NCBI RefSeq assembly: GCF_020921035.1 | Contig: NC_063160.1 | Location: 19,565,595 to 19,629,594, forward strand | Source: Rhodamnia argentea | Lineage: Eukaryota; Streptophyta; Magnoliopsida; Myrtales; Myrtaceae | Direction of reading: 5' to 3' | Length of the DNA: 64,000 nucleotides | Part shown: positions 3,060 through 12,327 of the stretch, one piece after another | Layout of the letters: each line of letters starts with the position of its first letter | Numbering within the stretch: the stretch's first letter is position 1 | The notes under the pieces: generated by a model | What the model was told of the DNA's origin: nothing | Database searches by the model: none | What the model saw: the letters and a program-made list of their open reading frames with translations, nothing else | Position numbers and translations under genes: made by a program

Positions 3060-3974
3060 CGAATTATTGAATTTTGAGCGTGTGGACGGAGCGACTCGGA
3101 TTCCCGCTAAAAATTAACGAAGAAACATCGATATCATCTTCCTTCGTATATAATATTTTCCATTCGAGGGTTTGGAACCGTCATCAAGAATGTCTTAACG
3201 GTTCCCGATCAATCCTAAAGGCCGACATTGATTCTTTTCTGACCTGCCGAAGACTCCGAGGGAATAAAGGCATGTATTTTACCTTAAACATCCTCTCTAC
3301 ATGAAAGGGTTGGTAGGATTATTAGCTCACGGAAGACAATAGAATAATTGCAACTATAACAGGTCAAATGGGTGGATCCGGTTAAAAATGACCTGACCCA
3401 ATTTGATTCATTTAACTCGTTTGATCTATTGTCGTACAATACGACTCAACTCGACCCATATTATTAAAAGACTTTTATGTTTAACGCATTTTAGGAATAT
3501 CCATACTCAATTTGAGGTGAGAACCTCGAGTGAGCGGATACGAGATCAAGTGAGGATAATATAAAATGAATACAGAGTCATAGAGGTGGTTTGGGTGTAA
3601 ATTATAAACTCGTTTAACACCCTCCCATGTTATATTGGGATTTATTATTCTGAACACGTTATGACGAGATTAAGTATAACATGAATAACTAATACTCAAT
3701 AACAAGAAAATCTTTTTAAATGAGTAAAACTTTGATCTCGTGAAAGTTATCCTCACCAACACATATATGAAACAAGCAACGTGCAAGATAAATTCATTCA
3801 TACTCAAAACATGAGATCATTTGCATTGACCAAAGTATGGAATTAAACGTGTTTGGAATAAGTTATGCTCGCCAAAGCCACACATACCAATTCATCCTTC
3901 TTCCGACATAAGTTTTGTTTGGTATTGCTGTAATTTTGTCTCGGCAACACTCTTCTAAAACTAAGGTATAAATA
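3060..3974. other. AT-rich intergenic DNA with a transposon end fragment
   Basis: No gene is seen. The stretch beginning near 3360 (ggtcaaatgggtggatccgg) resembles the left end of the transposon family present at 3975-4505 and 4581-5862, so it is probably a broken third member. The rest is AT-rich and unremarkable. Confidence 0.4.
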
Positions 3975-4505
3975 AGGTATCCAATGGGTGAGTCGGGTCA
4001 GATTTGGATGGGATCGGTCCAACCCATATTAGCCCGCATAACTCTTTTTTATTCAAAAATGTTATTATTAAAAAATCTTTTAAATTCTTTTAAAAAATCT
4101 TTTTTATTTTATTTTGCTTTTCTTTTTTCTTTCATTTTTCTCCAAGCGATCGACGGGGGAGGGCAGTGGTGACTAGCAATCGGCGGGTGGCGTAACGGTT
4201 TTTATATATTTTAATTTTGTTAGACCAAAACAATAATTTTTTTCTTTTACTTATAAAAATAAAAAATATAAACTAATCAAGTTAAGCTTTTGATAATGAG
4301 GCCCATTTATAATTTGTGGAAGTTGCAAGCCACACCCATGGGTCGAAAATGAGTTTTATATATATATATATATATGACCCATCATATTTAGTTTCAACTT
4401 TTTTGAACTCATTTTTAGTATACCCTCTAAAAACTAACAACTTATATATAATCCATTTACATAAAATATAGGTCAAAAATGGGGTCATGACTCATATTGA
4501 CAGCT
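3975..4505. mobile_element. Non-autonomous DNA transposon, small relative of the 4.6 kb element
   Basis: The left end (aggtatccaatgggtgagtc) and right end (cccatattgaca type, seen as actcatattgacagct) are degenerate versions of the inverted ends at 4581 and 5862. The internal segment cttttacttataaaaa...gtcgaaaatgag is shared with 5630-5735. It contains an (AT)n tract at about 4357-4374. No coding capacity is seen. Confidence 0.5.
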
Positions 4506-4580
4506 CTAAATGTGAAGTGGTGCATAATTTTAAGTTGCAACACTTCAAAGATAGAGTGGAGTAGCTTCTTCACAGCTGAG

Positions 4581-5862
4581 AGGTGTCAAACGGGTGGATC
4601 GAGTTTGGGTTGAGTCGAATATCGTCCGATCCATATTAATCCATTTTTCCGTTTTGACTCATTTTAATACAGTATAAATTTAACGACTCATATCCAATTC
4701 ATACCCGATCTGACTCCTATATTTAACCAAATCATAGATTTTTTTTTCGTAATGATATTGCTAAAACACTTGTACAAAATTGAATTTTTTTTAAATTTTT
4801 CCAGAAAAATTTAAACTTTTTATTTAAAATTTTATAAAAATATTTGTTTATAACCCACCAGCCCCCGGCTGCCTGCTGCCGCCGCATGCCACTGCCCACC
4901 GCCGCCGGAGGTGGACAGTCGAACGCGATGCGTGGCAGTGTGAGGGGGGCTGGCGATGGGCAATCCAGCGGCGATGATGATCACTCACGTGTTGCACAAC
5001 AAGCAGGAGTTCCCGTTTGTGCGGGGGATGGAAGACCTGATGGTGCTGTCGCTAGGGACGGGCCAGCCCTTGGAGGTGAGCGACAAGTACGACCAGGTCA
5101 AGGCCTGGAAGGCCCGGGTCTGGGGCAGTCCCGTGGCCCGAATATCAGCGACGTGTCGGCGGACCTGGCCGACCACGCGGTGGCCATAGCATTCAGCCAG
5201 TGCAGGAGCGGCAGCAATTGCGTGCGGATTCAGGTACGTCGTCCTCCGCCATCCCCCTCGAGATTCTTTTCTTTTTTCTTTCTTTCCTTTTTTTCTTTTC
5301 ACCGGGGGTTGGCGTTCATTCCGCGTCGTTAAGGGCTTTTGGCGGCGGGCGTATTGCTTCGGATGGGGGTTTCTTTTGCTGTTTCTGATGCACTAGACAG
5401 TGTTAGCCAGGCTGGTGTGGGGATGGTGATGCAGGGGGGACTTTTTGCCTTCTGCTTGCTTTGATTATTCACACTACTCACACGGCCGCAGTTGGATTTT
5501 GGAGCTGGAAGTGGCCAACCAGGCGATGGCAGGTGATGGTCGGCGGTAGCAGCGGGCGGTGGCGGGTGGCCGATTGCCAGCGGCGGCTTTTCAAAAATGA
5601 TTTTTCATTTTTTAGTTTTATTCTTTTTCTTTCTTTTACTTATAAAAAAAATAAACAAATATAATTAAGGCTCATTTACAAGTCATGTTTGGGAAGCTGC
5701 AGGTCACAGGCCAAATATGAGTCGAAAATGGATTGAATTAAAATCCGTATTTGAATAGGCTTTTCAAGCCTAAACTCATATTTGACTCATTTTTTAATCG
5801 ATTGGACCCGTCATATGTGACCAAAATAAATAAAAGTAGGTCAAAGACCCATATTGACACCT
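4581..5862. mobile_element. Non-autonomous DNA transposon carrying a captured patatin-like exon
   Basis: The element is bounded by short inverted ends AGGTGTCAA and TTGACACCT and has subterminal GGGT/GACCC-rich sequence typical of hAT-like or similar MITE families. About 1.28 kb long, it shares ends and internal AT-rich sequence with the 0.53 kb relative next to it. The extra length is a GC-rich insert at about 4845-5250 derived from a host phospholipase gene. No clear target-site duplication was found, so the superfamily is open. Confidence 0.6.
4911..5233 (+). pseudogene. Captured patatin-like phospholipase exon fragment
   Basis: Translation gives VDSRTRCVAV, a stop, then GGLAMGNP and MITHVLHNKQEFPFVRG, followed by LVLSLGTGQ-type residues (here LMVLSLGTGQPLEV). 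This is the C-terminal half of a plant patatin-like acyl hydrolase, closest by eye to the pPLA-III group. In intact relatives VDGGLAMGNP carries the catalytic Asp; here that codon is TGA at 4941-4943. A one-base loss near 5145 shifts the frame, after which ADLADHAVAIAFSQCRSG continues in another frame. An intact-looking splice donor follows at 5234 (cag|gtacgt), so exon plus intron start were copied from genomic DNA. It is non-coding now. Confidence 0.8.
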
Positions 5863-5914
5863 ATATATAGTTACAAGCCCTTGCAGTTAGGAGGACTTCA
5901 ACATAAATAACAAG

Positions 5915-6632
5915 AAAATTATAAAAAAAACATTTCTAAACTTATTGCATTTGTGCTAATTCAATCATAAATTTTTCAATTTGTCCAATTTAGTTCTAAA
6001 CCTTTCAGTAGTGGCGATTTAGTCTTAAACCTTTTAATAATTTGCCAATTTAATCCATTTAACTAATTTTGCCGGAAATTGATGACATAGTGGTCTAGTC
6101 AACACTAGTCATTCTATTTGGCACAGTCGACATTGACATGCACAATTATTATATTTTTTTTGTTTTATCTTTTTTATGTTCATTTTTATTTTTGGACCTT
6201 GGGCCGGGAAAGGCCAGTGATCATCGCTTGCCATGGGTGAGACGATTCTCACTTACATTTAGCAAGGTTCGCAACGTACTCGCACTAGATCATGTATGGG
6301 TCGACTAAGGACCTTGCCTGCCCAAAATTGAAAAAAAAAAAGAAAAGGAGAAAAATAATAAAAAAAATTAGAATAATGAAAAAAATTGTATATATCAATG
6401 ATTTTTGAGAAAAATTGATCAGATTGACTAAATTGATAAATCGTCAAAAGGTTTAGCACTAAATTGACAATTCGTCAAATGCTTAGTACTAAATTAGCAC
6501 AATTAATAAGCTTATGACTAAATTGATAAATTATCAAAAAATTTAGTACAAAATTGACCATATTGAAAGGTTTATAATTGAATTGGCATAAATGCAAAAT
6601 GCTTTAAAAGCATTTGGTAATTTCTTCAAAAG
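5915..6632. mobile_element. MITE-like inverted-repeat element
   Basis: The two ends are inverted copies: gcatttgtgctaattcaat on the left matches the reverse complement of attgaattggcataaatgc on the right. Internal strings of the type aaattgacaa / taaacctttcaa repeat. A relative with similar strings lies at about 45208-45460 and a more diverged one at about 16340-16560. No coding capacity is seen. Confidence 0.65.
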
Positions 6633-9480: not shown

Positions 9481-12327
9481 CTAATCAGACACTCGAAGAA
9501 TTAATTTCTGCTGAGAAGTCTCTGTTGGAGCCACCTCAAAGCCTTGAACAACATATGAATTGTTTGCCCCTGGCCGAGTGACTGTCACTTGGTAATCGCC
9601 ATGAAAGAGCGAGGCCTCGAAGGCACCATCCGGACCAGTCGTGCCGGACAAGACCTGCCTGGCCCCGCCCCATTCCTTCAACAGCTTGTCGACCACGTCC
9701 CCGGTTGGCAAGTTGCGGAAGCTGTTGTCCGTCAGACACATCCGGTAACACCCCTGCGGATTCCAAGCGGTCCACAATACTATTCCGTTGATCTTTGGAT
9801 GAGCGTGTGCCTCCCTCAACACCTGCTCCAAGTACATTGCCTTCTCAGACAATGCACCAGAAAAAAAATTGTCAAGATCACTATCCAATTATGACATGTG
9901 GGATCAAGTATAGTTTTCTCCCAACAGCGAAACTTTGGTGACGGCAAAAGATGTCAAATGCCTCACCTGATTTTGTCCACTTTGCACGTCGAGTTCGGTC
10001 AACCACATTGGCAGTCCCTTCGCTCCAAGGGTGTCAATGGCGGATCTCATGTAAGGGAGGTTGGGCACACTGAAATGAGACTCAAGTCCGACGCCCAAAT
10101 TCCTGCCGCCCGAAGATTGAATGTTTCCTATCTTGTTGGCGTATGCGGAAGGTGAAGATGCCCCATCCCTGCTATCCTCTATCGTGTTATAATCATTCAA
10201 AAACATAGTCCTCGAGGGATCGATGAAGTTGGCCGTTTTATAAGCGTTAGCAGACGCTTGTGGCCCGAGCTTGCTCTCGAAGAAGGAGAAGTGCAGGTTC
10301 TCATTGACCACATCCCATCCAATGACCTGGCCCTTGTACCTCTTCATGACAGAGTTAATCCTTCTTGTGACGGCTGCGGAGAGCTGGCTCGCCGAGAGGG
10401 AATTGACCCATGAAGGCTGGTTCCTAGGGTCATCCCACAGCACGTTGTGGCCACGGACTGAGATACCATGCTGCTGCGCGAATTTGAGCAGTGCATCTGC
10501 TGCCGAGTAGTCCACGTGGCCTTGGGTCAGCTCATTGGCATACCACTTCATTTCGTTCTCGAAGGTCGTGACAGTGAATCTGGAAGTGAACCAATTTTGG
10601 TATGCAGTGTTTGTCAGGATGTTCTTGTTTATGGCGCTACCAAATGGGAAGCTCAGCTTCTTTTGCACAATAGAGAAGGTGGCATTAGCCAGAGGCTTGT
10701 CTTGCTTGTCCATTACATGGATTCTGACCTTTCTTTTATGTTTCTGCAAATCATCATCGAGCGACAAGACCGAATATCAGACTAGTTTGCAGTCACTATG
10801 GCCAGATAATTCTCCAGTCAGATTGAAATATTAAACCCTCAGATAAACCTTTCCATCCAAAGAGGAGTACTCGTAACTAAATTTGTACCTCCTCAATGCT
10901 TTGCTCCTGATGCGATCTCCACTCTTCTGTTGTGAACGGTTGTAGCGAGACGCTATCAACCCATATCTCGACTGAGGTGTTTTCGCTCTGAGAAATCAAG
11001 TAACTTTCAGTACCTCTAGAAATGAAAAAACGTTGAGGATCGGAGAGGTTTTCGCGAGTAATTGAGCAAATCGCATAAGAAACAACATCGATAGTGCATC
11101 CAATTAGGAATCAAACATAGCCTTTGAAGTAGCAAAAAGGGAGTGAACATAAAAGAGTCGGTCACCTCGAAGTAAAGCTCAGCTGGCCCCGATTCATCAA
11201 CAGTGAGTCCACCCTTGATCATGGACCAGCAGTTCGGTTCAGCTATAATGGCACCAGCATGTTTGAACCCGCTAATCGTCTTAAAAACAGCACGTACTGG
11301 GATCTTCCCCTCGCTCACCTGCACCCACGCTGCATCAAGGTCGACTCCGAGACAGGTCAGCACAAAGGTCAAGTTTGCAACCGAAAAAAACCGTCGCACA
11401 AGGTTCAGTCATCAGACTTCGCTGAATCATGCTTATGCAGAAACATATTAACACGTTTCCACGAAATTTAATTTCCATGCAACCGAGACAGCCAAAGGAA
11501 AAGAGTTACCGGAAAAAGTGTAGAGTTTGTCCTTGTACAAATGAATCTTCTGGGAGACACTGTCATGCGAGTGATTCCTGCTACGAGCCACGATGAAATT
11601 ATTTCCATTAGACACTCTGTGGTCCACTTTTGCATTCCCAAAGGTGGACCATGCTCTTAACCCATGATTCAGCTCTGGGTTCTTGATGATCCCTCCATTA
11701 TACTGAGGCTTATGAGGGAAAGGCAAGCACTGAAAAAGAATCGATCGAAACAAAAACTCTCAGAATTGAGCTCGAGTCGGGAAGACCACTGCTATGATCA
11801 CAACTGGGGGATGGAAATCAACAAGCTTGCCTCAACACTGGCTGTGTAATCATATTTCAAAGCATTGGCTCCAAATCCTGCAGAGAGGAAAGGAATATCT
11901 TGTCACTTCTTTGGTACAGAACAAATAGCAGTAATTGAGGGAAAATGTATTTTAGCTTCTAGCAGATTAACATAGAAGCCAATAGAATACCTCATGAATA
12001 AATAATATCAAGCAACATAGTAAAAAGTCTGTCTACAAGTGACCGGCCAAAATCGATTATCATTGATTTTGTGTTGACATCATGCCAATTACTTCACATG
12101 AGTAAGACTAAACGCTCAGTAAGCATATGCTGCATGATTTTTCGGACATACCCTTTGTCAGCATTCGGTACATTAGAGTAACAGAAAACATTTAAACAGT
12201 GAGAACCTATCGGTTTCCTCTGTTTTACCAGAAGAGGAAAGCAGAACAAACCTGACAAAATGGTTACACATATAATGAGCGCAAATGCTAGTCTGATCAT
12301 GGCAGAGTCACAATGCCAAAATCCCAT
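9481..12327 (-). CDS. GH10 endo-1,4-beta-xylanase with CBM22-type module
   Basis: Secreted wall enzyme cleaving beta-1,4-xylan. Seven exons (minus): 12327-12252, 11877-11831, 11729-11510, 11329-11166, 10988-10889, 10743-9967, 9840-9481, coding about 580 residues. Order: signal peptide (hydrophobic AFALIICVTIL), carbohydrate-binding module (residues about 40-175, NPELNHGLRAW...), then the GH10 barrel with acid/base Glu in WDVVNENLHF and nucleophile in WLTELDVQ, and a short C-terminal domain. Two oddities. The second intron starts with GC rather than GT (GAG|GCAAGC). The exon at 10988-10889 has one base too many, in a run of five T at 10980-10984; without it every junction is in frame and the coding total is a multiple of three. 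This is either a homopolymer error or a real frameshift. A TATATATAA near 12490 (minus strand) may be the TATA box. Confidence 0.9.

Follow-up and report, generated by a model that had tools for sequence, protein, structure and literature searches.

A non-autonomous hAT-family element of Rhodamnia argentea carrying captured exon and intron sequence of a patatin-like gene

A 1.29-kb transposable element of Rhodamnia argentea carries a copied piece of a patatin-like gene, and its origin by Pack-type gene capture is well supported. The element lies in the 64,000-nt stretch analysed here (the window; positions given without a contig name refer to it). We put at roughly 0.8 the probability of the whole account that we prefer, according to which a hAT family would have captured exon and intron DNA of the patatin gene via template-switch repair and the loaded copy would now be a passenger.

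The first-pass annotation had described an element with the ends AGGTGTCAA and TTGACACCT. Both are present, but the ends of the family reach further (TAGAGGTGTCAA...TTGACACCTCTA) and set the bounds at 4578–5865 (Table 1); the terminal letters of this copy are GAGAGG (5′) and CCTATA (3′). Like Pack-TYPE elements, it is bounded by terminal inverted repeats and non-autonomous, no transposase being found within its 1.29 kb. The patatin-like exon with its splice donor does lie inside the element, as had been proposed, and the arms around it are common to the family: the 5′ arm matches 37 and the 3′ arm 38 of the 42 other extracted members.

Table 1. Features of the patatin-carrying element and of its neighbour in the window
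Feature	Position	Strand	Basis
Neighbouring element, related but of a different subgroup, same orientation	3972..4508	+	
Non-autonomous hAT-type element with patatin-like gene fragment	4578..5865	+	family ends and arms
5′ terminal inverted repeat, GAGAGGTGTCAA (family version TAGAGGTGTCAA)	4578..4589	+	
C-rich block, left side of cargo	4844..4906 (element 267-329)	+	
Captured end of exon 1, pPLAIII-like patatin gene (predicted)	4912..5233	+	
TGA replacing donor Gly codon GGA	4941..4943	+	
Site of 1-nt deletion (frame change)	5146..5147	+	
Captured start of donor intron, opening with GT splice donor	5234..5478	+	
Stretch between cargo end and G-rich block, without assigned origin	5479-5516		
G-rich block, right side of cargo	5517..5583 (element 940-1006)	+	
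3′ arm common to family	5588..5865	+	matches 38/42 members
3′ terminal inverted repeat, TTGACACCTATA (family version TTGACACCTCTA)	5854..5865	+	

We searched the genome itself (347 Mb, 74 contigs) for the donor locus, as the first-pass annotation had recommended, using positions 4581–5862 as query (56 matches among the best 40 candidates scored). Besides the window, only C5:3932635-3933181 covers the middle of the element among these candidates (83% over 4912–5478). The same locus was again the only full-length match when the cargo was searched alone; seven other loci matched 109–136 of its first 147 bases at 72–80%, and one further match spanned 19 bases (E 3.8). When window positions 4000–6600 were compared with 9.9 kb around the donor, only 4912–5478 scored better than E 0.001 (next match, E 0.002), and no support for cargo extending beyond 5478 was found. 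The patatin similarity thus stops inside the element, at 4912 and 5478; similarity running past the inverted ends, which would have spoken for insertion near a gene instead, was not seen. The cargo amounts to 567 bp (322 nt from the exon and, from the splice donor onwards, 245 nt from the intron) rather than the 323 bases originally proposed. Its donor lies on another chromosome than the element, in keeping with the host-gene copies of Pack-TYPE elements, whose donors are elsewhere. Since intron sequence is included, copying took place at the DNA level. With a donor found, homology confined within the element and an intron included, the original proposal of Pack-type capture holds.

The donor exon contains a patatin domain (PF01734, E 1.5e–16, residues 77–290), and its reading frame includes GTGVGG and AVGGGLAMSNP. 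According to the available parts of two papers, what distinguishes the pPLAIII subfamily is a GXGXG motif replacing GXSXG (PMC4204433, PMC4253999). By its domain and the GTGVGG motif, the donor is predicted to be a patatin-like gene of the pPLAIII type. The cargo starts within donor codon 267, close to the end of the Pfam domain, and continues through the end of the exon and the GT splice donor into the intron.

The captured copy has degenerated. Its in-frame TGA was earlier read as the catalytic Asp codon turned into a stop, but it stands for a glycine of the donor motif AVGGGLAMSNP; the single frame change also noted then is real and corresponds to the 1-nt deletion. Exon mismatches to the donor occur at 35 of 322 sites (12/107, 8/108 and 15/107 by codon position), and intron mismatches at 28 of 219 sites, with 31 further gapped positions. 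These changes fit an unconstrained copy set against a constrained donor. One could suppose instead that the fragment is functional, as a regulatory sequence or a coding exon under selection: the GT splice donor is retained in the copy, and captured pieces may be transcribed, according to the available part of PMC2528002. However, the stop, the frame change and the many substitutions at the first two codon positions speak against it, as does the 77-aa open frame left in the cargo, for which no Pfam match was found, and we consider such a function very unlikely. The patatin-carrying copy is now probably a passenger in decay that yields no protein.

A related element ends 69 bp from the patatin-carrying one. 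It had been taken for a nearly identical sister without the insert, and it contains no patatin sequence. However, its 12-letter ends differ from those of the main element at 5 letters (5′) and 2 letters (3′), the best genome matches of the two elements have no locus in common except the window itself (best 40 candidates scored for each), and it matches 18 of the 42 extracted members. These three observations rule out that it is the same element lacking the insert and place it in another subgroup. We also rejected a single large composite running from the 5′ end of the neighbour to the 3′ end of the main element, which gave 1 mismatch at best, in AT-rich sequence out of register with the ends. 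To the right of the main element, window positions 5971–6600 form an imperfect inverted repeat (85-nt arms, 5971–6055 and 6516–6600, 74% complementary) that may be another small transposon. Further away, on the minus strand of 9484–10767, lie gene pieces with a glycosyl hydrolase family 10 domain (PF00331, E 3.7e–46), xylanase-like by family.

No target-site duplication is detectable at 4578–5865: over shifted ends, the best pair has 3 mismatches in 8, a score equalled or bettered by 1551 of 2000 random pairs. The duplication could have been lost through age or rearrangement. Of the further copies that the first-pass annotation suggested looking for, we found a large family with the same ends, but no second patatin-loaded element when the cargo alone was searched against the genome. 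Having neither a target-site duplication nor a second copy, the patatin-carrying element could have been loaded in place. The missing duplication, which leaves the two ends unlinked, would also be expected if unrelated pieces of family elements happened to flank a patatin pseudogene fragment. To such a chance arrangement we assign a negligible probability, as neither arm is truncated at its end, the two are correctly ordered and oriented, the C-rich and G-rich blocks are in place, and an identical layout recurs in 26 other long members.

Elements of the hAT superfamily have short terminal inverted repeats of the type YARNG and generate 8-bp target-site duplications. The pattern GACCCATATTGACACCTCTA occurs at 866 genome sites with at most 3 mismatches, versus 8 for the reversed control. 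We examined all 45 exact 3′-end sites and found an acceptable 5′ end for 28 and none for 17. Among the 28 members with both ends, 25 are at least 790 bp long, and 21 have a target-site duplication with at most one mismatch (10 exact, 11 with one mismatch), a count to be read knowing that acceptance drew partly on the duplication itself. A wider, non-random set of 44 adds two of these 17 with ends set by hand (L003 and L020), the 12 best matches of the main element, the main element and its neighbour; the 18 loci L077–L094, together with L015, L016, L019, L021, L026, L027 and L028, stand outside these counts. Three loci on one contig (L054, L055 and L056; C5:23.93, 23.96 and 25.51 Mb) share a near-identical duplication (gaaggaag/gaaagaag) and therefore probably arose from one insertion by segmental duplication; the C-rich/G-rich bracket is absent from all three.

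A 4673-bp relative (positions 170–4842 of L103, C8:19408950-19414500) has an exact TAGAGGTGTCAA end and a 3′ end with 3 mismatches. On its minus strand it encodes a zf-BED domain and a hAT-like RNase-H domain (PF14372, E 2.2e–26), and it also has a Dimer_Tnp_hAT match (PF05699) interrupted by one stop. We chose it by eye among 100 of 163 5′ ends and at least 150 hAT matches listed, and one hAT-transposase neighbour among so many listed places would not be very surprising by chance. We nevertheless regard it as a relative of the family because an exact 8-bp duplication (GGCAGGAG) lies on either side of it and because its 5′ arm is 91% identical over 130 bp to that of family member L071. It illustrates the kind of element from which transposase could have come. 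The ends TAGAGGTGTCAA and TTGACACCTCTA, which are YARNG-type short inverted repeats, the 8-bp duplications and this relative with the same end and hAT transposase domains identify the family as hAT.

The cargo sits at a recurrent position. A C-rich first and a G-rich last central block are present in 27 of 33 long members of the wider set (main element included) and in none of its 11 short members (neighbour included); the bracket is also found in 19 of the 25 both-ended members of at least 790 bp. The remaining long members have the G-rich block only (three), no block (two) or the reverse order (one). Family-wide, C blocks are similar to the reverse complements of G blocks (mean score 11.0 versus 8.2 for shuffles). 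We found no support for the idea that a C block is an inverted copy of the G block of the same element: in 22 elements with blocks picked by hand, complementarity was not higher within than between elements (permutation test, P-value 0.13). The blocks therefore look inherited rather than made anew with each capture. They closely adjoin the ends of donor homology in three members (L058, L011 and L003), and stretches without assignment are left in two others (L010 and L049).

Other members carry other cargo. A joined query of 8 inserts returned another locus for each, and eight loci for 7 of the 8 inserts entered the comparison with donors (those of L069 were left out). Element arms are absent from the loci matching L058, L011, L003, L010 and a part of L049, although for L010 similarity is low along most of the match (72%, with many gaps). 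L049 has two loci, of which one (L100) continues into a G-rich block and is ambiguous as a donor; the loci matched by L068 and L007 were discarded as donors, being other family copies. Together with the main element, these five arm-free cases give six, in five of which the donor is on another contig than the element (the exception is L003). When 13 segments of 12 elements were joined into a second query, another locus was found for 9 segments, donors among these being mostly not distinguished from family copies, and none for L042, L043, L044 and the first segment of L059 (best 40 candidates scored).

Over the Pfam cut-offs we detected EF-hand in L051, Piwi in L059, Myb in L011 and DIM1 in L069; bZIP_1 (L058), EF-hand_7 (a second piece of L051) and HJURP_mid (L059) scored below the curated cut-off. 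In the two batches searched, 7 of 10 pieces (the 77-aa frame of the main element included) and 5 of 10 pieces had no Pfam match. L051 (C5:8557232-8560032) contains two pieces of EF-hand genes, oppositely oriented and ~84% alike, one of them matching C2:488572 at 85%, which suggests either two captures or an inverted duplication. Four members (L037, L052, L066 and L076) have a common cargo and four different duplications; loaded elements have therefore moved.

In the mechanism that we propose, a break or gap would arise in the GC-rich core of an element, and repair synthesis would jump to an unrelated chromosomal template and then return. A member of this high-copy, non-autonomous hAT family would in this way have copied into itself genomic DNA of a pPLAIII-like patatin gene, from the last part of exon 1 into the first part of the following intron, and transposase acting in trans would have moved some of the loaded elements. 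The recurrent position in the GC-rich core, the foreign donors, the intron and the lack of element ends near the patatin donor favour template-switch repair; at the patatin junctions we did not establish any clear microhomology. Under the alternative of fusion, two family elements would have inserted to the left and right of the patatin sequence and, after loss of their inner ends, moved as one unit. Such a tandem-insertion model has been published for Pack-TYPE elements including hAT (available part of PMC8903248), and the presence of a related element, equally oriented, at a distance of 69 bp would agree with it. However, that neighbour belongs to another subgroup and is free of patatin sequence, the 9.9 kb around the donor contained no motif resembling the element ends at up to 2 mismatches, and fusion would give varied inner borders, whereas most long members hold their cargo at the same GC-rich core. 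We therefore find fusion unlikely. The GC-rich core, C-rich then G-rich and possibly hairpin-forming, might be a dedicated capture site that breaks repeatedly and takes in unrelated chromosomal DNA, making the family a routine shuttle of gene fragments. This idea is tentative, and we are inclined to doubt it.

How cut-and-paste transposons acquire host genes, by fusion of neighbouring insertions or by faulty gap repair, is unsettled. With many cargoes at one internal position, several identifiable donors and loaded elements that have moved, the Rhodamnia family makes the two models of capture comparable, and it suggests that in some plants hAT elements often carry pieces of genes. That hAT elements can contain gene fragments is already known (PMC13317346 is a recent review), and the patatin capture taken alone is an ordinary member of this class. 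In the open-access literature we found no report of the Rhodamnia family or of a GC-rich capture site, and no hAT family with such cargo density and a constant C-rich/G-rich bracket.

The comparisons that follow draw on the available parts of the papers cited. Among the closest known systems are the non-autonomous maize hAT elements Ds2 and Ds-l4, which likewise hold filler DNA, in some cases intron-containing gene fragments from other chromosomes; fragments were described in 2 Ds2 and 9 Ds-l4 elements and called rare for hAT (PMC3260210), whereas many long Rhodamnia members have cargo between C-rich and G-rich blocks. Grapevine Hatvine-6, also hAT, similarly combines common ends with a variable interior resembling genic and non-genic loci, but its elements share transposase coding sequence, while the Rhodamnia members are short and have none (PMC2528002). 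Pack-TYPE elements of maize and rice, Pack-hAT included, are also non-autonomous terminal-inverted-repeat elements that move pieces of host genes; they are explained by fusion of neighbouring insertions, whereas the recurrent GC-rich position in Rhodamnia suggests template-switch repair (PMC8903248). Animal Pack-TIRs, many of them hAT, offer a parallel both in single-copy captures, ascribed to gap filling with template switching, and in multicopy cases with distinct duplications. They differ in the distance to the donor: 56.9% lie within 15 kb of it, whereas 5 of the 6 donors considered here are on other contigs (PMC8277862).
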